In this document: positions 18,091 to 28,976 of the stretch, one piece after another
Numbering within the stretch: the first letter of the stretch is position 1
How the letters are laid out: every line of letters starts with the position of its first letter
Source of the DNA: an uncultured Geobacter sp.
Lineage (GTDB): Bacteria; Desulfobacterota; Desulfuromonadia; Geobacterales; CAIOGM01
NCBI GenBank assembly: GCA_903857795.1
Contig: CAIOGM010000062.1
Location: 1-47,920, forward strand
Direction: 5' to 3'
Length of the DNA stretch: 47,920 nucleotides
Made by a program: the position numbers and the translations under genes
Notes under the pieces: model-generated
Database searches by the model: none
The model's input: only the letters and a program-made list of their open reading frames with translations
Told to the model about the DNA's origin: nothing

Positions 18091-18129
18091 AAGAGGAGGG
18101 TCAACGGAACAACCGTTGACCCTCCTCTT
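18091..18129. terminator. Bidirectional intrinsic terminator between sel1 and yjbH
   Basis: A perfect 17-bp stem (AAGAGGAGGGTCAACGG and its complement) closes a 5-base loop, AACAA. Plus-strand reading continues into TTTTCTATTG. The minus-strand reading continues into TTTATCC. It separates two convergent genes and can serve both. Confidence 0.9.
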
Positions 18130-18160: not shown

Positions 18161-20425
18161 CTACTCCGGGTGAACATACCGGATGTAGGCGTCGCGAACC
18201 CGCAGGAGATGGCTCTTGATGTATTCAGGTGTCAGCCTATCCCGGTCGTAATAGACCTGGGTAACGCTGTTTACCATGGGAGGCGTGTTGCCGATGGCGA
18301 CACTTACATAGTTGTGCCCATCGGGGCTCTTGGTGACCGATTCCTGGCGATACCGCCACTCGTCGGGACCTTTGACCTGGACGGGATACGGCTTCATCCC
18401 CTGACGCGGGGTAAGGGGAAACGAGAATTGCACCCCCCCCATCTGGTAATTCAGGTTGTCGGTAGTCCTGCAGAATTTGTAAAAGACCGACAACGCCGTA
18501 TCTCCGAAGAACCGGGTCAGGTCGGCGCGCGCCCCCCTGTCGTTCTCCCAGAAACTGCCGGCGGTGAGCGTCAAGGAGGTGTCCAGCGGCGTATAGGTGT
18601 ACCGGTAGGATCCGAGGTAAGCCGTATGATCAAAGTTCTTGTAGGTATTGTCCCTTCCGAACCCCTGCTGGAATCCCAGACGGTGCTCTCCTCCCTTGGA
18701 GTACCAGTACGCCTCGTTCAGTGTGCCATAGACATCGTGCTGAATCATCCCCGCTCCCAGAGATATCATGAAATCGGGATGGATTCTGAGGGCCTGGTTC
18801 AGCATGACGGTCTCCACCTGGGGATCATTCCGCGATGCTCGAAACGGGTAATCGTCGTCGAATCCCTTGCTCCAGACAACCGGGATAGTACCGGTTATAT
18901 TCAGGAGGGCCCCTTTCCAAAGATCGACCGTGAGTGTCGGAGCAAACGCGAGGAGATAATCGAGACTGCTTATTTCTGTCGCGAGAAATGTCGTCAATCG
19001 GGGCGCCAGCACCAGTCGGGAACGGAACCAGTTGGCAAAACTCGCCTCTTCCAGAAAAGCCACATCACGCTCCTCGGTTACCGTCGAAGAGATCTCGACC
19101 AAGTCGCCGAGGCTGTCGTTGAACGCGGCATCGCCCAGGAATGTTCTGAGCGGAGCGGACGGCATGGATAGCTGAAGCATCCGAAGCCCTTGGATCTTCA
19201 AGACAAGGCGGACCGTTTGGTAATCAGTGGCAACGGTATCGCTCACCATCCCGAGCACGACCCCAATCCCATCCAGCTGACTCTGGTTATAGCGGGCGTT
19301 TTCATATTCGACCAGGATAAGTTCATGATCCTTGGTTCCGACACGAACGTTCATGAAGCCATCGGCAACCAACCGGTCTCTCAAACCACGCAACGCGCCA
19401 TCCTTGGAGAGAGCAACGGCCACAACTCCCGCCGGGGTCACCTCTGCACCGGCCTTGACCGGAAGAGTCTCCCGACCCGTTGGGGTGGTCTCAACAGAAG
19501 CTCTGGCTACAATCTCGGCACCAGCCCTTACGGGGAGATTATCATCTTCTTTGGATGCGACTTTTTCGGAAACTTTCGTGCCGGTGGCAGGGATCGGCAA
19601 CGCTGCGGTGGTCGTGATCGCTGACAGGGGTGATTGTGACGCGGCATCTTCGGGATGAACTGTCGGAATGATACTGTGCTGTTCGGCGGTCGGCTTCCGG
19701 TGCCAGTCTCGTCCCATGGCAAATTGGAACCCGAGGGTAAAGTCGATGGTTCCGGGGTTATTGCTCACCGCAGACTTTATCATCGACTGAAGATTCACCG
19801 GATAGCCGAAGAGATCCGGGGAGATCACCCTAAGCCCGAGGTTTGTGTCCTTTGCGTCGTACTCGCCGAGCAGGTAGAGCCAATCGAACGCCTTGATCTC
19901 CCCCCCGGCAAACAGCCCCTTCAACCTGCCGGTCTGATTCGATCCGAAGCCATAGCCCAGTGAAAGACGAAACCGGCTGATCTCCTCGGTGGCCACGAGA
20001 TAGGTCGTATTGTAGTGACTCGCTTGACCACCCACATCCTGAGCGCCAACTGCCAAGGTCGGGAACCACGGCCGATCCTTAGGGGTGAACGGCGCCGTCG
20101 TCACCTTGAACTGGGCTGAAAGGTCATTGGCTCCGGCGCTATTTCCCACAGCGACGCGGCCACCGATTTCCAAAAGAGAGAACATCCCGGTGGAGAAGAA
20201 GTAGTTGTCCCCATATTGCGCTTGCGTCCCATCCTTTTGTTTCCCGTACCAGAAGGCCATGGTCCCCTCTTTCTGGACGTTGGCCGTGGGAACGTTCATT
20301 ATCCCGGTGAATCCCTGGAGAGAAGGCCCATTGGAAAAATCACCGGCAACGGCGCCGGTGACTGTCACCGTCAGCACGACGGCAATTAGCAATGTTTGTA
20401 ATCTGCGAATCCTTCGGTCAAGCAT
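18161..20425 (-). CDS. YjbH-domain outer-membrane protein (exopolysaccharide-associated)
   Basis: About 754 residues with a signal peptide (LQTLLIAVVLTVTVTGAVAG). The mature start NGPSLQGFTGIMNVPTANVQKEGTMAFWYG is the hallmark of the YjbH (DUF940) family. These are putative outer-membrane barrels encoded with polysaccharide export genes. The barrel-like first part is followed by a region with short repeats (LPVRAGAEI, LPVKAGAEV), then a second strand-rich part ending in YTPLDTSLTLTAGSFWENDRG and YYDRDRLTPEYIKSHLL. ATG 20425 is preferred: AAGAGG lies six bases upstream and the longer frame would run through a hairpin. It lies 119 bases downstream of a lipoprotein gene, with that hairpin between. 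Confidence 0.8.
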   Translation of the reverse strand: MLDRRIRRLQTLLIAVVLTVTVTGAVAGDFSNGPSLQGFTGIMNVPTANVQKEGTMAFWYGKQKDGTQAQYGDNYFFSTGMFSLLEIGGRVAVGNSAGANDLSAQFKVTTAPFTPKDRPWFPTLAVGAQDVGGQASHYNTTYLVATEEISRFRLSLGYGFGSNQTGRLKGLFAGGEIKAFDWLYLLGEYDAKDTNLGLRVISPDLFGYPVNLQSMIKSAVSNNPGTIDFTLGFQFAMGRDWHRKPTAEQHSIIPTVHPEDAASQSPLSAITTTAALPIPATGTKVSEKVASKEDDNLPVRAGAEIVARASVETTPTGRETLPVKAGAEVTPAGVVAVALSKDGALRGLRDRLVADGFMNVRVGTKDHELILVEYENARYNQSQLDGIGVVLGMVSDTVATDYQTVRLVLKIQGLRMLQLSMPSAPLRTFLGDAAFNDSLGDLVEISSTVTEERDVAFLEEASFANWFRSRLVLAPRLTTFLATEISSLDYLLAFAPTLTVDLWKGALLNITGTIPVVWSKGFDDDYPFRASRNDPQVETVMLNQALRIHPDFMISLGAGMIQHDVYGTLNEAYWYSKGGEHRLGFQQGFGRDNTYKNFDHTAYLGSYRYTYTPLDTSLTLTAGSFWENDRGARADLTRFFGDTALSVFYKFCRTTDNLNYQMGGVQFSFPLTPRQGMKPYPVQVKGPDEWRYRQESVTKSPDGHNYVSVAIGNTPPMVNSVTQVYYDRDRLTPEYIKSHLLRVRDAYIRYVHPE

Positions 20426-20451
20426 CGCAACCTCTTTCATGGCGGCTGGAT

Positions 20452-20490
20452 ACAACAAGAGAGGAAGTACAGGACTTCCTCTCTTGTTGT
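20452..20490. terminator. Long hairpin between the lipoprotein and yjbH genes
   Basis: Perfect 17-bp arms (ACAACAAGAGAGGAAGT and its complement) enclose a 5-base loop, ACAGG. On the minus strand the distal arm ends TCTTGTTGT without a clean T-run. It may be a leaky terminator or an mRNA-processing or stabilising stem that sets yjbH expression apart from the genes above. Confidence 0.6.
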
Positions 20491-20544
20491 GCATTTGGTG
20501 CTGTCAACATATCGATGTAAGTTAGTGAGGAGAATTACAGATGA

Positions 20545-22113
20545 TTAAGGACCGCCGCTCCCACCCGTGGAACCGGTGACATGACAGAATTCCCAGTCAT
20601 TTTTTATGAAATCGACTTCCCCGCTGCCTGTTAAGGATAATGGAGTCAGTGACGGATAATTGTTGCTGGGCCAGAAGAATAGTTTACTGCCTGTCACAGC
20701 CTTGACACCATTCACAGTGCCATCAGGACCAGTCACGCCGACATAGCTGCATGTAGCAAACGAGAGGGAGAGAGCCGCACCAGGGCAAGCATAGATCGGA
20801 ACGTTGGGCAGGAACTGCTTTTCTATGACACCGTTGTACGGGAAAGAACATTGGCGATAGGTGCTGAAATTATAGCTGCTCACTGATTCCGGAAGCGTCA
20901 CTGCAAGAGTAACTGTCGGACACGTCGTACCAGTATACACGCCATCACTTACTCCGACCGTATCCGCCCCGTATTTTGCCGTATAGATCATCGTCGTATT
21001 GACTGGAACATTCGCAATTGTAACTGTTGGGTCTCCCAGCGGTTTGTTCCCGCTGTAGTACGTCCCGGTACCACCGGAAGCGGTGAGGATAAGAGGCGAA
21101 AGAGCGGCAGATCCTGTAAGGGTGAGAGTCTGGGTACAATACTTCTTCCCGAGTTTAGCCCCCAGATTCCAATAGGAGAAATGGTTTGGAGTGAATTCGA
21201 CAAAGAGCCCTTTGGCATCCTGCTGGACGAGAACGTCACCGGGGATCCCGTTATAATTAGAGGCGTCCTTATCCACCTCCCAACTGCCTGATCCCGCCCT
21301 GAACGTATAGACTCGCATGACCTCGTCTTTCGCGACAGGGTTGCCGGTTTCCGGGTTTATGGTCCCCGTTGCGATGTCCATTCGAATCTTCATCGGCTGG
21401 CTGAGAGTCGTCGCTACCGTACCAACTGAATCACGCACCGTCACATCGGTAAAACCAGTGGAGATAAAAACCGAACCATCGCTCGGAGCAAGGGCCAGAG
21501 CCGTCGTCTTCAGGGGGTTGTAGTTGGCTGCGGTCATGGTGAGGTCGCCCGTCAGCACTGTAGCACCGGCGAGTACCTTCACTCCCGCATCGATGATGGC
21601 GGTGGTCACTGACCCCGTTCCGGGGGTGGAGAGCGAGATTCCAACCCCTGCCGGAGTCGGCAGGCTCACGCTTTTTTCAATGCCGCTCAGACTCGAAGAA
21701 ACGGAAGTGGAGACAAGGGCGATCTTACCGAAATCGCAGACCGCATCGCTTGGCTTGATCGTCAGGGGGAGACTATTAGCGTTGTAGCTCTTATTTCTGG
21801 CGGTGATGGTAAAGGTAATATCAGCCGCAGGATGCTGCAGCAGACCGAACGAGACGGAACCGTTGTTCGCCGAAGTAAAGGGCTGCGCAAGCGCTTTACC
21901 TTTGTCATCATAGACCGTGGCAGTGACTCCGTTCACCGTAACCGTTATATCTGCGGGAATGCCCGCCTGAGTTGCGGCATCTACCACGGCACCAGTGACA
22001 ACGACTGCCCTGTCGACCTTATAGCTTACCGTCGAACTGGACGCCCCTCCACCGCATCCGGACACGATTACCGTGAACAGCATCCCGATAATAAGTATGG
22101 TTTTGCGCATCAT
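20545..22113 (-). CDS. Large lipoprotein with Ig/carboxypeptidase-regulatory-like strands, unknown function
   Basis: About 522 residues. The signal ends in the lipobox TVIVSGC followed by a Gly/Ser linker, so it is lipid-anchored. The first 100 mature residues (VVVTGAVVDAATQAGIPADITVTVNG) look like a carboxypeptidase-regulatory or surface Ig-like fold. The rest is rich in Thr, Val and Gly strands, with cysteines concentrated near the C-terminus. No enzyme motif was found. The adjacent ATGs at 22113 and 22110 follow AGGAGC. It lies 51 bases after the PEP-CTERM gene and upstream of yjbH, and may be co-transcribed from the sigma-54 promoter. It has no C-terminal sorting signal. Confidence 0.7.
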   Translation of the reverse strand: MMRKTILIIGMLFTVIVSGCGGGASSSTVSYKVDRAVVVTGAVVDAATQAGIPADITVTVNGVTATVYDDKGKALAQPFTSANNGSVSFGLLQHPAADITFTITARNKSYNANSLPLTIKPSDAVCDFGKIALVSTSVSSSLSGIEKSVSLPTPAGVGISLSTPGTGSVTTAIIDAGVKVLAGATVLTGDLTMTAANYNPLKTTALALAPSDGSVFISTGFTDVTVRDSVGTVATTLSQPMKIRMDIATGTINPETGNPVAKDEVMRVYTFRAGSGSWEVDKDASNYNGIPGDVLVQQDAKGLFVEFTPNHFSYWNLGAKLGKKYCTQTLTLTGSAALSPLILTASGGTGTYYSGNKPLGDPTVTIANVPVNTTMIYTAKYGADTVGVSDGVYTGTTCPTVTLAVTLPESVSSYNFSTYRQCSFPYNGVIEKQFLPNVPIYACPGAALSLSFATCSYVGVTGPDGTVNGVKAVTGSKLFFWPSNNYPSLTPLSLTGSGEVDFIKNDWEFCHVTGSTGGSGGP

Positions 22114-22164
22114 CTTGCTCCTCTTGATTTTAAACAACGTGTTGTAGGTAATTAGCTAACTAGA

Positions 22165-22890
22165 TCAGGGCTTACGGCGACGTCTAAGGAACGCAAGACC
22201 ACTCAATCCGGCGCCGATGAGCACAAACGTCGAAGGCTCCGGAACCGTCGTATAACTTAGGTCCGTCAGCGTATACCATTCATTCCCGGGAATACCGGTA
22301 GTAATTGCCGAGATCTCAACTGACTTGATCTCCTTGTCGTTCGGATCCGCGATGATACCCCACCAGTCCTGGTAAACAGTACTATTTATCGTAAAAGTAG
22401 TTGTACCGTTAAGAATATCGGTGATGAGAATTTTCAACCCTGGGCCAGCTGCTTGAGGACCGAAGATAGCGGTGTTGTTAAGGTCAAAGAAGGCGCCGAA
22501 AGCAATGGCGGGCTTGTTAAAGCTGAACGTACTCTTGGCTCCATTGCTGCTGCTTGGCAGATCGAGCCAATATTGTGCGTTTATGTATCCAAGATTTGTC
22601 GTTACCGAGGAGTTCACTGTATTGAACGGCGGGGCATTGAACGGTGGGGGACTCAAAAGGTCGCGAGGATAAGGCGTCAGCACACCTCCGGGAGGGGTCA
22701 GAGGATTTGTTTGTGAAAAGTCGACGACATTCATATAGGCGACTGAGTAAGGATACTGAGCTGTTACCCAGGAATCCCATCCCCCGCTTGATGCGTCATA
22801 GACCGTGAAAGCGGGCGCTGTTCCGGCAAACAGCATCGTCATCATCGATGTAACAGCTGCAAAAGATAGCATTTTTTTAAGTAATTTCAT
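22165..22890 (-). CDS. PEP-CTERM sorting-domain protein
   Basis: 241 residues with a signal peptide (LSFAAVTSMMTMLFAGTAPAF). The C-terminal signal VPEPSTFVLIGAGLSGLAFL is followed by RRRR. This tripartite PEP motif, membrane helix and basic end is recognised by exosortase. The middle is strand-rich, aromatic and Asn-rich, with no catalytic motif. In other bacteria such proteins are processed and exported with extracellular polysaccharide. AGGAGG lies seven bases before the ATG at 22890; the longer open frame to 22959 has no such site. The upstream region has a sigma-54 promoter and a large inverted repeat. No exosortase gene lies in this window. Confidence 0.9.
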   Translation of the reverse strand: MKLLKKMLSFAAVTSMMTMLFAGTAPAFTVYDASSGGWDSWVTAQYPYSVAYMNVVDFSQTNPLTPPGGVLTPYPRDLLSPPPFNAPPFNTVNSSVTTNLGYINAQYWLDLPSSSNGAKSTFSFNKPAIAFGAFFDLNNTAIFGPQAAGPGLKILITDILNGTTTFTINSTVYQDWWGIIADPNDKEIKSVEISAITTGIPGNEWYTLTDLSYTTVPEPSTFVLIGAGLSGLAFLRRRRKP

Positions 22891-23026
22891 TACCAAGCCT
22901 CCTGTAAGTTGGTTCCAGTTTATACGATGATTTTTTATACAGTCAAAAGAATATAGCACCGCATTGAGTCGTGCCTGCTTCGGTGATACCTGAACGGATC
23001 TCGCCGAACTAGGTCTTGTTCAGTTT

Positions 23027-23042
23027 TGCAATTAGTATGCCA
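23027..23042 (-). promoter_or_regulatory. Sigma-54 (RpoN) promoter of the PEP-CTERM gene
   Basis: The minus strand reads TGGCATACTAATTGCA. It matches the TGGCAC-N5-TTGCA consensus at all but one position, with exact -24/-12 spacing. Transcription would begin near 23017, giving a leader of about 127 bases before the ATG at 22890. Confidence 0.75.
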
Positions 23043-23100
23043 TGATTTCAAAAGCGTTTTTCAGGTAGTTAGCCCCGTTTCGTCCTTACTCCGTGCATAA

Positions 23101-23143
23101 ACTGTAAAGTTTTCCGACACCTCATCACGGAAAACTTTACAGT
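23101..23143. promoter_or_regulatory. Inverted repeat at enhancer distance from the sigma-54 promoter
   Basis: Perfect 16-base arms ACTGTAAAGTTTTCCG (23101-23116) and the complement (23128-23143) enclose 11 bases. The repeat spans about -84 to -127 relative to the predicted start, where sigma-54 activators bind. Neither strand shows a T-run after it, so it is not a terminator. Confidence 0.6.
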
Positions 23144-23388: not shown

Positions 23389-23417
23389 TTGCATTCACGC
23401 TGCCAACCTTTTATAGT
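23389..23417 (+). promoter_or_regulatory. Sigma-70-type promoter of the RCC1/discoidin gene
   Basis: TTGCAT (23389-23394) and TATAGT (23412-23417) have the ideal 17-base spacing. Transcription would start near 23424, about 57 bases before the ATG. Confidence 0.6.
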
Positions 23418-23480: not shown

Positions 23481-26400
23481 ATGAAAAGCAACTCCACTTT
23501 ATCGACGATCCTGACTGCTCTCATGTTATTCATCTGTGTAATTGATGCACAAGCGACTGCCCCGCCCTACAACCAGATCGCCTCCGGTGCATCTCACATC
23601 GTCTCCTTGAAGAGCGACGGAACCGTCTGGAGCTGGGGGGCTAACTATTCGGGACAGCTTGGCAACGGAACGACAGCAGATAGTCCCTTACCGGTAAAGG
23701 TAGCGACGCTTTCGAGTGTCATAATGGTTTCTGCCGGGGGAGACCATACCGTCGCGCTGCAGAGTGACGGTACGCTCTGGGCTTGGGGGGGCAACAGCTC
23801 CGGAGAACTTGGCGATGGCTCCGTTACGAACCGTCTGATGCCTGTGAAAGTTATGACCAATGTAAAAACAATCTCAGCAGGTTTCTTCCACACCGTTGTC
23901 GTTAAAAACGATAACAGCCTCTGGGCCTGGGGGAGCAACGGTAGCGGTCAACTTGGTGTCAGCGCCGTCACCTACAGCACCCTTCCTCAGCAAGTGATCG
24001 GCGTAACCGGGGTTGTCACCGCACTGTCAGCCGGGTTGTACCATACTGTGGCGGTTGCAGGTGGCACCGTCTTTTGCTGGGGGTCAAACGGTTACGGCCA
24101 ACTGGGCAACAATACCACGAACAACAGCAGCGCTCCGGTCATGGTCCCGGGTCTTACAGGGGTTACGGCGGTAGCAGCCGGCTCCTATCACACGGTGGCG
24201 ATGACTGATACTGGCGCTCTCTGGGAATGGGGATCAAATACACGTGGACAACTTGGAGTCGATACGATAACCAACTACAGCACCATCCCCATCCAGCCTA
24301 AAGGAGTAGGATCGGTAAAGGCACTTGCCGCAGGATTTAACCACACTGTAGCCGTGACAGCCGACGGGGCGGTCTGGAGCTGGGGCGCCAACAGCTACGG
24401 TCAGCTCGGTAACGGCACTAAGCATGACAGCAACAGCCCCACTACTCCAGCGGGGCTTTCAATGATCACACTGATCGCCGCCGGGGGCAATCATACATTG
24501 GCGTTGAAAGATGACGGCACGCTTTGGGGGTGCGGTAATAACGACTATGGCCAGGTGGGGAATGGAATAGTGTCATTCAGCACACTCCCTCTGCCGGTGG
24601 CTGGGTTCACGTTAGCCACTGCGCTCGCCGGCGGAGGGAGGCATACCGTGGCCATCGCTGACGGTGGTTTTATCTGGAACTGGGGAGACAACGTGTACGG
24701 TCAGTTGGGCAGCGGTGACTACGCAGACAGACCCGCACCGGTCCGGATAACCTCACTCCTCGGGGCAGAGCACGTAGCTGCCGGAGAAAACCATTCCGTC
24801 GCCGTTGTCACCGGTGGCCAAGTCTGGAGTTGGGGGGACAACTCCCATGGCCAATTGGGTAACGGCACCACAACCACAAGCCCTATCCCGGTTTTGGTCA
24901 ATGGCCTGACCGGGATTACGGCAATAGCCGCCGGCAATTCTCATACCGTCGCCCTGAAAAGCGACCGCACGGTCTGGGCCTGGGGCGATAACTATTACGG
25001 TCAGCTCGGTAACGGGACTCAAGGGGTCAGCGCCGCGCCGGTGCAGTCGGCCATTACCGATGTCGTGGCCATTGCCGCCTCAGATTACAGGACAGTCGCC
25101 TTGAAGAGTAACGGCACTGTCTGGTACTGGGGGAAAAAAGACAATAATGTGAACAGCGGCGACCTGAGCCCTGTGCAAAGTCCCCTTACAGGGATCACGG
25201 CAATTGCCGCCGGGTTTTACCACACCCTTGCATTGAGGGGTGTGGACGGCACCGTCTGGGCATGGGGGCCGAACTATTACGGTGAGCTTGGCGATGGAAC
25301 CATCATTGCAAAAACGACCCCCGTTCAGGTGAGCGGGCTGACCGCCATAACGGCGATAGCTGCTGGAAACGGGCACAGTCTTGCGGTAAAAACCGGCGGG
25401 ACGCTCTGGTCCTGGGGGGATAACGTTTCAGGAGAACTGGGTGACGGGACGTCCATAAACAGACTGAAACCCGTACAGTTGAGCGGAGTAACCGGAATGG
25501 CCACGGTTGCCGCCGGCAATTTCCACTCCTTAGCCTTGAGCGGCTCCGGACAGGTTACGGCCTGGGGTTGGAACGCCTTTGGTCAACTCAACGGCGCCAC
25601 GACGAGCCTCCCGCAACAGGCGCTGCTCAATCTCACGAACACGACGTCTCCGTCCGTCGTCCTGGTGGCCCCGGCCTCAGGTGCGACCTACACTCCTCCC
25701 GCAACCATCACCTTAAAGGCAAACACGGCATCCCCATCGGCTACGATCACCAAGGTGGAGTTCTATAACGGTGCAACCCTGCTCGGCAGCGACACGACCT
25801 CTCCCTACAGCTACTCATGGACCACTGTCTCTGCGGGGATTTACTCCCTGACGGCAAAGGCCTATGACAGCACGGGCGCCGTCACCACCTCGGAAACATC
25901 CACAGTTACTGTCGCTTCCCTGACCTTCTACATTACCACCACTGCCGGGGCACACGGAAGCATCACTCCCACAGCCACTGTCAACTACGGCGCCAGCAGC
26001 AGTGTGACCGTCACACCCGACAGCGGTTATCACATTGCGTCGCTGCTGGTGGACGGTGTCAGCCAAAGCATCACCAATCCGAAGAGTTTCAGCACGACCT
26101 TCAGCAGTGTCGTCGCCGACCACACGGTAAGCGCCACCTTTGCCGCCGATATCTTCACCATCACGACCGTAGCAGGTACCTACGGCAGTATCACCCCGAC
26201 TACAGTGGTGAGCTACGGTACCGGTGTCACTATTATAGTCACTCCCAACAGCGGCTATCATATCGCCACAATATTCGTTGATGGAGTCAGCCAGACCATC
26301 CCCGATCCGATGAGTTTCAGCGTAACCTTCAGCCCCGTCATCACCGGCCACACGGTGAACGCCACCTTTGCCAATGCGCCCCCCACCGTTACCCTGACCA

Positions 26401-28976
26401 CCGGCACAACCTTCACCGCCCCGGCATCCATAATCATGACGGCAACCGCCGCCGACAGCGACGGCACTGTCAGCAGGGTCGAATTCTATAACGGCGCCAC
26501 ACTCCTGGGGTACTCCACAACGGCACCCTACAGCTACACCTGGAGCAATGTAGCAGCCGGCAGCTATCCCCTCACAGCCAAAGCCTATGATAACCTGGGG
26601 GCAGTCACCACCTCCGGGGTGACAACCATAACCGTCGCGCCGGCACTCCGCACCAACGTGGCCCTCCAGGCAAACGGCGGAGTTGCGACAGCCTCCTCCT
26701 ACTACAATACGGTCACCTATCCGGTGGCAGCGGTGAACAACGGCGACCGTAAGGGTGGAAGCCTGGGAGGGGGCGGAGTCTGGAGTGACGCCACGAATAA
26801 TCTCTACCCCGATTGGGTGCAGATAACCTTTAACGGTCAGAAAACCATCGACGAGGTCGATCTCTTCAGCCTGCAAGACCTCCCCGCGGCATCGGTTGAG
26901 CCAACCCCGACCCTCACCTTCACCAAATACGGCATTAACGCCTTCGACGTTCAGTATTGGGATGGGACGACCTGGCTGTCGGCAACAAACAGCGGCATCA
27001 CCGGGAACAATCTGGTCTGGAGGAAGGTCTCCTTCTCGGCGGTCACCACCGACCGGATCCGACTGGTCGTCACTTCCTCCCTCGGCGCCCCATTGCGTTA
27101 CAGCCGGATCGTGGAGATTGAGGCCTACGGCTCAGCCGTTGCCCCTCTGAACAGTCCGCCGACAGTCACCCTGACTACCGGCACAAACTACACGGCTCCG
27201 GCAACGGTCACCCTGGCCGCGACGGCTACAGACAGCGACGGCACCATCAGCAAGGTGGAATTCTACAACGGGTCGACTCTCCTCTGGAGCGGCACAACCG
27301 CGCCCTACAGCTTCAGCTGGACCGATCTGCCCGCCGGCAGCTATACCGTCACGGCCAAGGCCTATGATAACCTGGGGGCCGTTACCACCTCGGCGGCGGC
27401 GACTATCACCGTTGCGGTCGCAGCTCTCCCGGCCCCGACCATCACCTCCATCTCCCCAACCGGCATCACCCTGGGAAACGCAGCCAGCGTCACCATCGAC
27501 GGCGCGAACCTGACCGGCGCCACGGTAACCTTCAGTAACGGTACAGTCGGTACGGCCACCACTACCACCGCCACCCGCATCGTTATTCCGATCACCGGAT
27601 CCACCGTTGGAACAGGGACGGTCACCGTCACCACCGCCGGCGGCAGCGCCACCGGCAACCTCACCGTCACCGCCGCTCCAGGAATCCGGAGCAACGTGGC
27701 CCTGGCGGCCAATGGCGGAGTTGCGACGGCTTCCTCGGTGTACACTAGTGGTATGTTCCCCATCTCGGCGGTGAACGACGGTGGACGGATCGGGAAGAAT
27801 TGGGGTAAAGGGGGCTTTGATTCGGGGTGGAACGACAATACCAGCAATGTCTGGCCTGACTGGGTGCAGATAACCTTCAACGGTTCAAAGAACATTAACG
27901 AGATCGATCTGTACACTCTGGGGGACAACTATGCCACGGCAACCGCAGATCCGACCTTAAGCGATACGTTCACGAAAGAGGGGAATACCTCCTTCGATGT
28001 GCAGTACTGGGATGTCACTACGAACAGTTGGCTGTCGGTGGCGCCCGGGGCACTCCCCGTCACAGGCAACAACAACGTATGGCGGCAGTTCACCTTTGCG
28101 CCGGTGACCACCAACCAGATACGGGTACTGGTGTACGCAACCGCATCTTCCGTATATAAGTACAGCCGGATTGTCGAGTTTGAGGCGTACCAATCGGATG
28201 GAGTTGCACTCGGCCAACCGACGATCACGAACGTTACGCCCGGCAGTGTGGTTCAGGGGATTGCCACCTCTGTCTCTATCACCGGGACAAACCTAGCCGG
28301 CGCAGCCATCGCCTTCAGCAATGCTACCGCTTCCGGCGTCACCGTAACAGATACCCGGATCACCGCCGTGGTCACCGGCACGGTTCCTAACGCCGGCACC
28401 GTTACCGTCAGCACCACCGGCGGCAGCGCTCAGAGCCCCTTCACAGTTGCCGCGACCCCGCTCCGGACCAATGTCGCCCTTGCGGCCAACGGCGGAACAG
28501 CCACGGCCTCATCGGTGTACATTAACGGCATGTTCCCTATTGCGGCAGTTAACGATGGTGGACGGATCGGGAAGAATTGGGGTAAAGGGGGTTTTGATTC
28601 GGGGTGGAACGACAATACCAGCAATGCCTGGCCTGACTGGGTGCAGATAACCTTCAACGGTTCAAAGAACATTAACGAGATCGATCTGTACACCCTGGGG
28701 GACAACTATGCCACGGCAACCGCAGATCCGACCTTAAGCGATACGTTCACGAAAGAGGGGAATACCTCCTTCGATGTGCAGTACTGGGATGTCACTACGA
28801 ACAGTTGGCTGTCGGTGGCGCCCGGGGCACTCCCTGTCACAGGCAACAACAACGTATGGCGGCAGTTCACCTTTGCGCCGGTGACCACCAACCAGATACG
28901 GGTACTGGTGTACGCAACCGCATCTTCCGTATATAAGTACAGCCGGATTGTCGAGATCGAGGTGTACGGATTCTGA
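23481..28976 (+). CDS. Giant secreted protein: 14 RCC1 repeats, Ig-like and three discoidin-like domains
   Basis: 1,831 residues with a signal peptide (residues 1-25). Residues about 30-715 hold 14 RCC1 repeats (pattern H(T/S)(V/L)A...G.(V/L)W.WG.N..GQLG.G), enough for two seven-bladed propellers. Then follow an Ig-like (Big_7-type) domain (730-810), two bacterial 'GSITP...SGYHI...VDG' repeats (815-965), Big_7 (970-1050), F5/8C discoidin-like domain 1 (1055-1215), Big_7 (1225-1310), IPT/TIG-like (1315-1395), discoidin 2 (1400-1570), IPT-like (1575-1655) and discoidin 3 (1658-end). Discoidin 2 and 3 are nearly identical DNA. There is no anchor or PEP-CTERM signal. GGAAGGG precedes the ATG. It is probably a secreted adhesin or matrix protein. 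Confidence 0.88.
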   Translation: MKSNSTLSTILTALMLFICVIDAQATAPPYNQIASGASHIVSLKSDGTVWSWGANYSGQLGNGTTADSPLPVKVATLSSVIMVSAGGDHTVALQSDGTLWAWGGNSSGELGDGSVTNRLMPVKVMTNVKTISAGFFHTVVVKNDNSLWAWGSNGSGQLGVSAVTYSTLPQQVIGVTGVVTALSAGLYHTVAVAGGTVFCWGSNGYGQLGNNTTNNSSAPVMVPGLTGVTAVAAGSYHTVAMTDTGALWEWGSNTRGQLGVDTITNYSTIPIQPKGVGSVKALAAGFNHTVAVTADGAVWSWGANSYGQLGNGTKHDSNSPTTPAGLSMITLIAAGGNHTLALKDDGTLWGCGNNDYGQVGNGIVSFSTLPLPVAGFTLATALAGGGRHTVAIADGGFIWNWGDNVYGQLGSGDYADRPAPVRITSLLGAEHVAAGENHSVAVVTGGQVWSWGDNSHGQLGNGTTTTSPIPVLVNGLTGITAIAAGNSHTVALKSDRTVWAWGDNYYGQLGNGTQGVSAAPVQSAITDVVAIAASDYRTVALKSNGTVWYWGKKDNNVNSGDLSPVQSPLTGITAIAAGFYHTLALRGVDGTVWAWGPNYYGELGDGTIIAKTTPVQVSGLTAITAIAAGNGHSLAVKTGGTLWSWGDNVSGELGDGTSINRLKPVQLSGVTGMATVAAGNFHSLALSGSGQVTAWGWNAFGQLNGATTSLPQQALLNLTNTTSPSVVLVAPASGATYTPPATITLKANTASPSATITKVEFYNGATLLGSDTTSPYSYSWTTVSAGIYSLTAKAYDSTGAVTTSETSTVTVASLTFYITTTAGAHGSITPTATVNYGASSSVTVTPDSGYHIASLLVDGVSQSITNPKSFSTTFSSVVADHTVSATFAADIFTITTVAGTYGSITPTTVVSYGTGVTIIVTPNSGYHIATIFVDGVSQTIPDPMSFSVTFSPVITGHTVNATFANAPPTVTLTTGTTFTAPASIIMTATAADSDGTVSRVEFYNGATLLGYSTTAPYSYTWSNVAAGSYPLTAKAYDNLGAVTTSGVTTITVAPALRTNVALQANGGVATASSYYNTVTYPVAAVNNGDRKGGSLGGGGVWSDATNNLYPDWVQITFNGQKTIDEVDLFSLQDLPAASVEPTPTLTFTKYGINAFDVQYWDGTTWLSATNSGITGNNLVWRKVSFSAVTTDRIRLVVTSSLGAPLRYSRIVEIEAYGSAVAPLNSPPTVTLTTGTNYTAPATVTLAATATDSDGTISKVEFYNGSTLLWSGTTAPYSFSWTDLPAGSYTVTAKAYDNLGAVTTSAAATITVAVAALPAPTITSISPTGITLGNAASVTIDGANLTGATVTFSNGTVGTATTTTATRIVIPITGSTVGTGTVTVTTAGGSATGNLTVTAAPGIRSNVALAANGGVATASSVYTSGMFPISAVNDGGRIGKNWGKGGFDSGWNDNTSNVWPDWVQITFNGSKNINEIDLYTLGDNYATATADPTLSDTFTKEGNTSFDVQYWDVTTNSWLSVAPGALPVTGNNNVWRQFTFAPVTTNQIRVLVYATASSVYKYSRIVEFEAYQSDGVALGQPTITNVTPGSVVQGIATSVSITGTNLAGAAIAFSNATASGVTVTDTRITAVVTGTVPNAGTVTVSTTGGSAQSPFTVAATPLRTNVALAANGGTATASSVYINGMFPIAAVNDGGRIGKNWGKGGFDSGWNDNTSNAWPDWVQITFNGSKNINEIDLYTLGDNYATATADPTLSDTFTKEGNTSFDVQYWDVTTNSWLSVAPGALPVTGNNNVWRQFTFAPVTTNQIRVLVYATASSVYKYSRIVEIEVYGF
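27780..28178 (+). repeat. 399-bp internal direct repeat, first copy (discoidin 2)
   Basis: This copy matches 28557-28955 at a constant offset of 777 bases (259 codons). I count four single-base differences in 399, three of them silent. Flanking parts of the same domains are clearly more diverged, so the match reflects recent duplication or gene conversion. Confidence 0.92.
28557..28955 (+). repeat. 399-bp internal direct repeat, second copy (discoidin 3)
   Basis: Partner of the copy 777 bases upstream. The repeat ends abruptly within the final strand (the sequence after TTGTCGAG differs), 21 bases before the stop codon. Confidence 0.92.

Follow-up and report, generated by a model that had tools for sequence, protein, structure and literature searches.

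Paired PEP-CTERM boxes at a predicted PrsR-dependent sigma-54 promoter of an exopolysaccharide operon in an uncultured Geobacter

At promoters of the NtrC, NifA and XylR type, IHF is found between the enhancer and the promoter. Upstream of most PEP-CTERM genes of proteobacteria, Haft et al. (2006; PMC1569441) found a 17-nt motif (motif 1) that ends in TTTACA and is "sometimes repeated", and this motif is followed by a spacer of 62.8 +/- 10.6 nt and then by a sigma-54 site (motif 2). The same account predicts PrsR as the binder of motif 1, and the phylogenetic profile of the motif given there matches PrsR, PrsK and PrsT exactly. In D. vulgaris, all five predicted PEP-CTERM targets of DVUA0057, the PrsR orthologue, were enriched by DAP-chip, an in vitro pull-down that came without validation of any motif (Rajeev 2011, PMC3333781), and a predicted motif common to DVUA0057 and DVU0110 was reconstructed in the sigma-54 regulome paper (PMC4641369). 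In Aquincola tertiaricarbonis, the transcription of pepA needs RpoN1, its -24/-12 start is mapped, and the enhancer that had previously been predicted is present upstream (PMC9850573). For Geobacter, the IHF consensus in use is WATCARNNNNTTR, and IHF commonly acts there between the enhancer and the sigma-54 promoter.

Here, we examine the element at positions 23027-23143 of a 47,920-nt stretch of DNA from an uncultured Geobacter sp., which as a whole is called the window. By its sequence features, the assignment of this element to the known PrsR / PEP-CTERM box class is strongly supported. To this class, the present analysis adds the inverted arrangement of the boxes together with its conservation throughout the genus, a helical phase shared between box pairs, a likely site for IHF and, as the predicted target, an exopolysaccharide operon.

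The promoter, its boxes and the downstream operon

The sequence TGGCATACTAATTGCA is the only exact match of the window to TGGCAYN5TTGCW, and it has the highest sigma-54 score of all window positions on both strands (Table 1). Its GG and GC lie 10 nt apart, which bears out the exact -24/-12 spacing that an earlier note on this DNA had claimed, and this -24 GG / -12 GC layout is also the one that defines motif 2 of Haft et al. The -24/-12 element is identical in one congener (G001), near-identical in two others (G002 and G003), and found at the same position. Another sigma-54-like site, TGGCAGCGTGAATGCA (23390-23405, minus strand), has the third best score of the window (13.2). It lies some 250 nt upstream of the repeat and is directed towards it, and no box was detected with it.

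Upstream of the promoter, the perfect 16-base inverted repeat that the earlier note had placed at about -84 to -127 is indeed present, and its span computes to about -85 to -127 when counted by the -24/-12 convention from the predicted +1. In 60 first-order-Markov windows of equal length, perfect 16-nt repeats with a gap of up to 40 were absent; the real window has three of them, namely the 23101-23143 pair and two hairpins that lie within a transcription unit or at its end. The promoter-proximal 17-mer agrees with motif 1 as characterized in the text of Haft et al., to which the comparison refers, in its length of 17 nt, in its 3'-terminal TTTACA, in the spacing and in the sigma-54 site, and its 60-nt spacer to the promoter falls within their range. 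The centre of the distal box is 22 bp away from that of the proximal one, and its outer ACA half-site is degenerate. On this sequence evidence, we read the 16-bp inverted repeat as two oppositely oriented 17-nt copies of motif 1, that is, of the PEP-CTERM box, rather than as one operator. The proposal that the repeat is a candidate activator site is thus supported, in the form of a predicted PrsR box, but this kind of site had already been published (Haft 2006, PMC1569441), and the single site that was envisaged gives way to two 17-bp boxes in opposite orientation.

Table 1. Coordinates of the predicted features in the window
Feature	Position	Strand	Remarks
Predicted sigma-54 (RpoN) -24/-12 promoter, TGGCATACTAATTGCA	23042-23027	minus	predicted +1 about 23016-23017
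Candidate IHF bend site, TAACTACCTG	23062..23071	minus	between box and promoter; fits YAANNNNYTG
Inverted repeat arms, ACTGTAAAGTTTTCCG / CGGAAAACTTTACAGT	23101-23116 / 23128-23143		16/16 complementary, gap 11 nt
Predicted promoter-proximal PrsR box (Haft motif 1), TGTCGGAAAACTTTACA	23103..23119	minus	ends 60 nt before -24 element
Predicted distal PrsR box, inverted; TGTAAAGTTTTCCGTGA on minus strand	23125..23141	plus	TGTAAAGTTTTCC kept in four species
PEP-CTERM surface protein, operon gene 1	22165..22893	minus	242 aa with signal peptide; TIGR02595, PF07589
Predicted lipoprotein, operon gene 2	20545..22137	minus	about 520-530 aa; ORF with lipoprotein-type signal
YjbH-family exopolysaccharide protein, operon gene 3	18161..20494	minus	PF06082, E 8.4e-22

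The product of the first gene of the operon scores 29.8 bits against TIGR02595 (cut-off 16) and 28.3 bits against PF07589 (cut-off 20.7). The order of the PEP-CTERM, lipoprotein and YjbH genes is syntenic in all three congeners that were compared (G001, G002 and G003), which are Geobacteraceae and Desulfuromonadales metagenome assemblies. The YjbH proteins of these congeners are 57-61% identical to that of the window and their syntenic PEP-CTERM proteins 28-32%; when the genome contigs were searched, the window PEP-CTERM protein found no relative, and the YjbH alignment search gave matches only in the same three congeners. The four species of the genus share the proximal 17-mer without a single difference, the box stands 60 nt from the promoter in the window and 62, 60 and 60 nt from it in G001 to G003, and in the four-species promoter alignment the invariant letters are almost confined to the two boxes and the -24/-12 element. 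We read this pattern of upstream conservation as a clear footprint of selection on what would be protein sites.

Other hairpins accompany the operon. A perfect 17-bp hairpin without a T-run (20452-20490, minus strand; -27 kcal/mol, z -7.3) separates the lipoprotein gene from the likely YjbH start, and it may influence the processing or translation of the YjbH mRNA. Another one (18091-18129; -39.7 kcal/mol), found between the convergent Sel1-repeat and YjbH genes, is probably a bidirectional terminator. On the other side of the repeat, the divergent gene (23481-28976, plus strand) encodes about 1830 residues with many RCC1 repeats and Ig-like domains.

PrsR, its predicted targets and rival readings

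The genome encodes PrsR (TIGR02915, 668.5 bits for a cut-off of 502.6) on contig C65, where it adjoins PrsK (TIGR02916, 565.9 bits for a cut-off of 300). There are 43 PEP-CTERM matches in this genome, and pattern searches, on which the genome-wide counts are based, place a box and a sigma-54 site upstream of at least 12 of these 43 genes at strict thresholds; one further probable PEP-CTERM promoter has a box and a weak sigma-54 site. At most of the box promoters of PEP-CTERM genes in this genome, there are two boxes in direct orientation, an arrangement that is commoner here than the inverted one. A genome search for elements resembling the repeat, which had been suggested as a check, gave the expected outcome, with the half TGTAAANTTTTCCG recurring upstream of other PEP-CTERM genes and the composite pattern of box and sigma-54 site occurring 6 times in the genome against 0 in the backward control. 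About 30 of the 43 genes have no recognised box and sigma-54 site, so that PrsR is apparently not required for all PEP-CTERM genes.

A HAMP-repeat, chemoreceptor-like gene, named from its sequence (L198:2271-4001; G000:C87 from 34570, plus strand), has an inverted PrsR box pair upstream, with a sigma-54 site 61 nt after it, and it is a candidate for a PrsR target outside the PEP-CTERM genes. As the predicted targets comprise the YjbH operon, this chemoreceptor-like gene and single PEP-CTERM genes, the PrsR regulon may bring together matrix proteins, polysaccharide and sensing. The prsR homologue of another genome (G055) is itself followed, about 75 nt past its 3' end, by an inverted box pair (C1:3434199-3434236).

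The repeat could in principle act as an RNA or DNA hairpin (a terminator or an attenuator) instead of a protein site, and a 55-nt stretch does fold at -23.8 kcal/mol (z -6.2). However, the repeat is upstream of both flanking starts, no T-run follows it on either strand, one of its arms is changed in G003 without any compensating change, and at other promoters the same boxes form direct repeats or inverted pairs too imperfect for this stem; we consider this reading extremely unlikely. If a protein site it is, the box pair might also be a shared operator that controls the divergent RCC1-repeat gene as well, given that it sits between divergent genes with a symmetric box arrangement, and that the RCC1 gene is divergent in G003 too. 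Against such a double role, no sigma-54-like site faces the RCC1 gene in the window, G002 or G003, where the best scores in that direction are 5.0, -0.9 and 4.7, respectively, compared to 12.9-15.4 for the PEP-CTERM promoters, and it is to the PEP-CTERM side that the most consensus-like box and the conserved 60-nt spacing belong. Shared control is accordingly judged very unlikely.

The identity of the activator calls for the same weighing, since another NtrC-family regulator of the same specificity could be the main one in place of PrsR. The genome has many NtrC-family matches, and in D. vulgaris DVU0110 and DVUA0057 have a predicted motif in common; but a single protein of this genome passes the PrsR cut-off, and the exact correspondence of the motif profile with PrsR, PrsK and PrsT, as given in Haft et al. 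(PMC1569441), points to PrsR itself, which makes another main activator very unlikely. We thus retain PrsR acting through paired boxes as the preferred reading.

Box geometry and the IHF-like element across the order

In 141 genomes of the order, inverted box pairs were found in 25 places against 0 in the control, and direct pairs in 30 places against 3. Two inverted pairs (G010 and G011) that are GC-rich, terminator-like hairpins were excluded from the spacing test. The 17-mer centres lie 19-23 or 32-33 bp apart in the inverted pairs, and 20-23, 29-34 or 43-45 bp apart in the direct ones. At a period of 10.5 bp, the mean phase is 0.42 bp for the inverted and 0.47 bp for the direct pairs (Rayleigh R of 0.83 and 0.81), and 0 of 100,000 uniform draws were as concentrated for either orientation. 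Direct and inverted pairs have one common helical phase across the order. The two phases agree best if the dyad is centred in the 17-mer, consistent with a dimer site of the form TGT-N11-ACA. Furthermore, the distances from box to promoter (45 promoters) cluster near 51, 61, 71, 81 and 93 nt, which are whole turns (R 0.58, with 0 of 20,000 draws as strong), and the exact probabilities of this phasing and of that of the pairs are not to be taken literally because the promoters are partly related by descent.

The spacer of the window promoter contains TAACTACCTG, in which the core fits the consensus and the flanking ATW of WATCARNNNNTTR is present in part. The pattern TAA-N4-CTG, which matches the reverse complement of the IHF consensus, is found in the spacers of 14 of the 47 box promoters of the order and is missing from most of them; in most of the 14, it lies 30-32 nt after a box, and its distance to the -24 element downstream is 29-30 or 40-41 nt. 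This pattern was noticed first and then tested on the same promoters: once related promoters were removed by identity in register, it was present in 11 of 39 spacers for a shuffle mean of 0.56, and any gapped 3+3 pattern reached 11 spacers in 1 of 1000 shuffles. With a laxer deduplication by gapped alignment (17 of 47 kept), TAA-N4-CTG was not significant, 30 of 500 shuffles being as good; this procedure also grouped unrelated promoters, and identity in register was preferred to it. Outside the order, the element was not seen again in the few strict matches of box and sigma-54 site, which are on Desulfovibrio and Vibrionaceae plasmids. One sigma-54 promoter of the D. vulgaris plasmid has TAACTAGCTG 30 nt upstream. 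A role of TAAC-N3-CTG as a third PrsR box was considered and rejected, its CTG being out of line with the CCG of the box. As it stands, the TAAC-N3-CTG element is likely a putative IHF site. A literature search found no paper combining PEP-CTERM and IHF, nor any report of box phasing or of an IHF-like element at PEP-CTERM box promoters. Both the helical phasing and the IHF-like element add modestly to a known system.

From this geometry, we lean slightly towards a PrsR code of the Geobacter order in which boxes would pair only at two, three or four turns, with a free orientation and a fixed phase, and would stand at whole-turn steps from the sigma-54 site, with an IHF-like site locked about 31 nt after the box in some promoters and with each box as the dyad of a PrsR dimer.

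Proposed mechanism and comparison with known systems

We hold with high confidence that the element is a predicted PrsR-dependent sigma-54 promoter, which would drive the operon of the PEP-CTERM, lipoprotein and YjbH exopolysaccharide genes. PrsK would phosphorylate PrsR, and two PrsR dimers would then occupy the two 17-bp boxes, whose spacing puts them on the same helix face, two turns apart. PrsR would assemble an ATPase ring, as is known for the NtrC family. The short 60-bp spacer would be bent, probably by IHF at TAACTACCTG, and because of this bend PrsR could contact the sigma-54 polymerase at TGGCATACTAATTGCA, so that the promoter would be opened. The prediction that motif 1 is the site of PrsR action dates back two decades, and it is here linked to a concrete promoter, one that is strongly conserved among relatives of Geobacter. 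The promoter also supplies a simple sequence criterion with which targets of PrsR can be listed, and the mutations expected to disrupt activation can be predicted from the spacing rule.

This locus resembles the PEP-CTERM box system of Haft et al. in having a box, a spacer of about 63 nt (60 here), a -24/-12 site and a PEP-CTERM gene, with PrsR and PrsK encoded in the genome, whereas the account of the motifs that we draw on (PMC1569441) says nothing of a head-to-head pair, of a shared helical phase or of an IHF-like element. The DVUA0057 regulon of D. vulgaris, for which the comparison was made with the plasmid of strain RCH1, is close as well: the PrsR of this plasmid shares 55% identity with that of the Geobacter genome studied here, the helix-turn-helix being almost identical in both, and TGTCGG-type boxes are found upstream of its PEP-CTERM genes. 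The regulator of D. vulgaris has pull-down data, whereas the box pairs of the Geobacter order are known from sequence. The Aquincola pepA gene is likewise a PEP-CTERM gene behind a -24/-12 promoter with a predicted enhancer upstream, but it belongs to a distant organism and is a single gene followed by prsT, and what was shown there is the dependence on RpoN. Finally, paired activator sites, a putative bend site and a sigma-54 promoter are the same components as in the promoters of the NtrC, NifA and XylR type, from which this one differs by the sequence of its boxes and by an enhancer that is nearer, at 60 nt.
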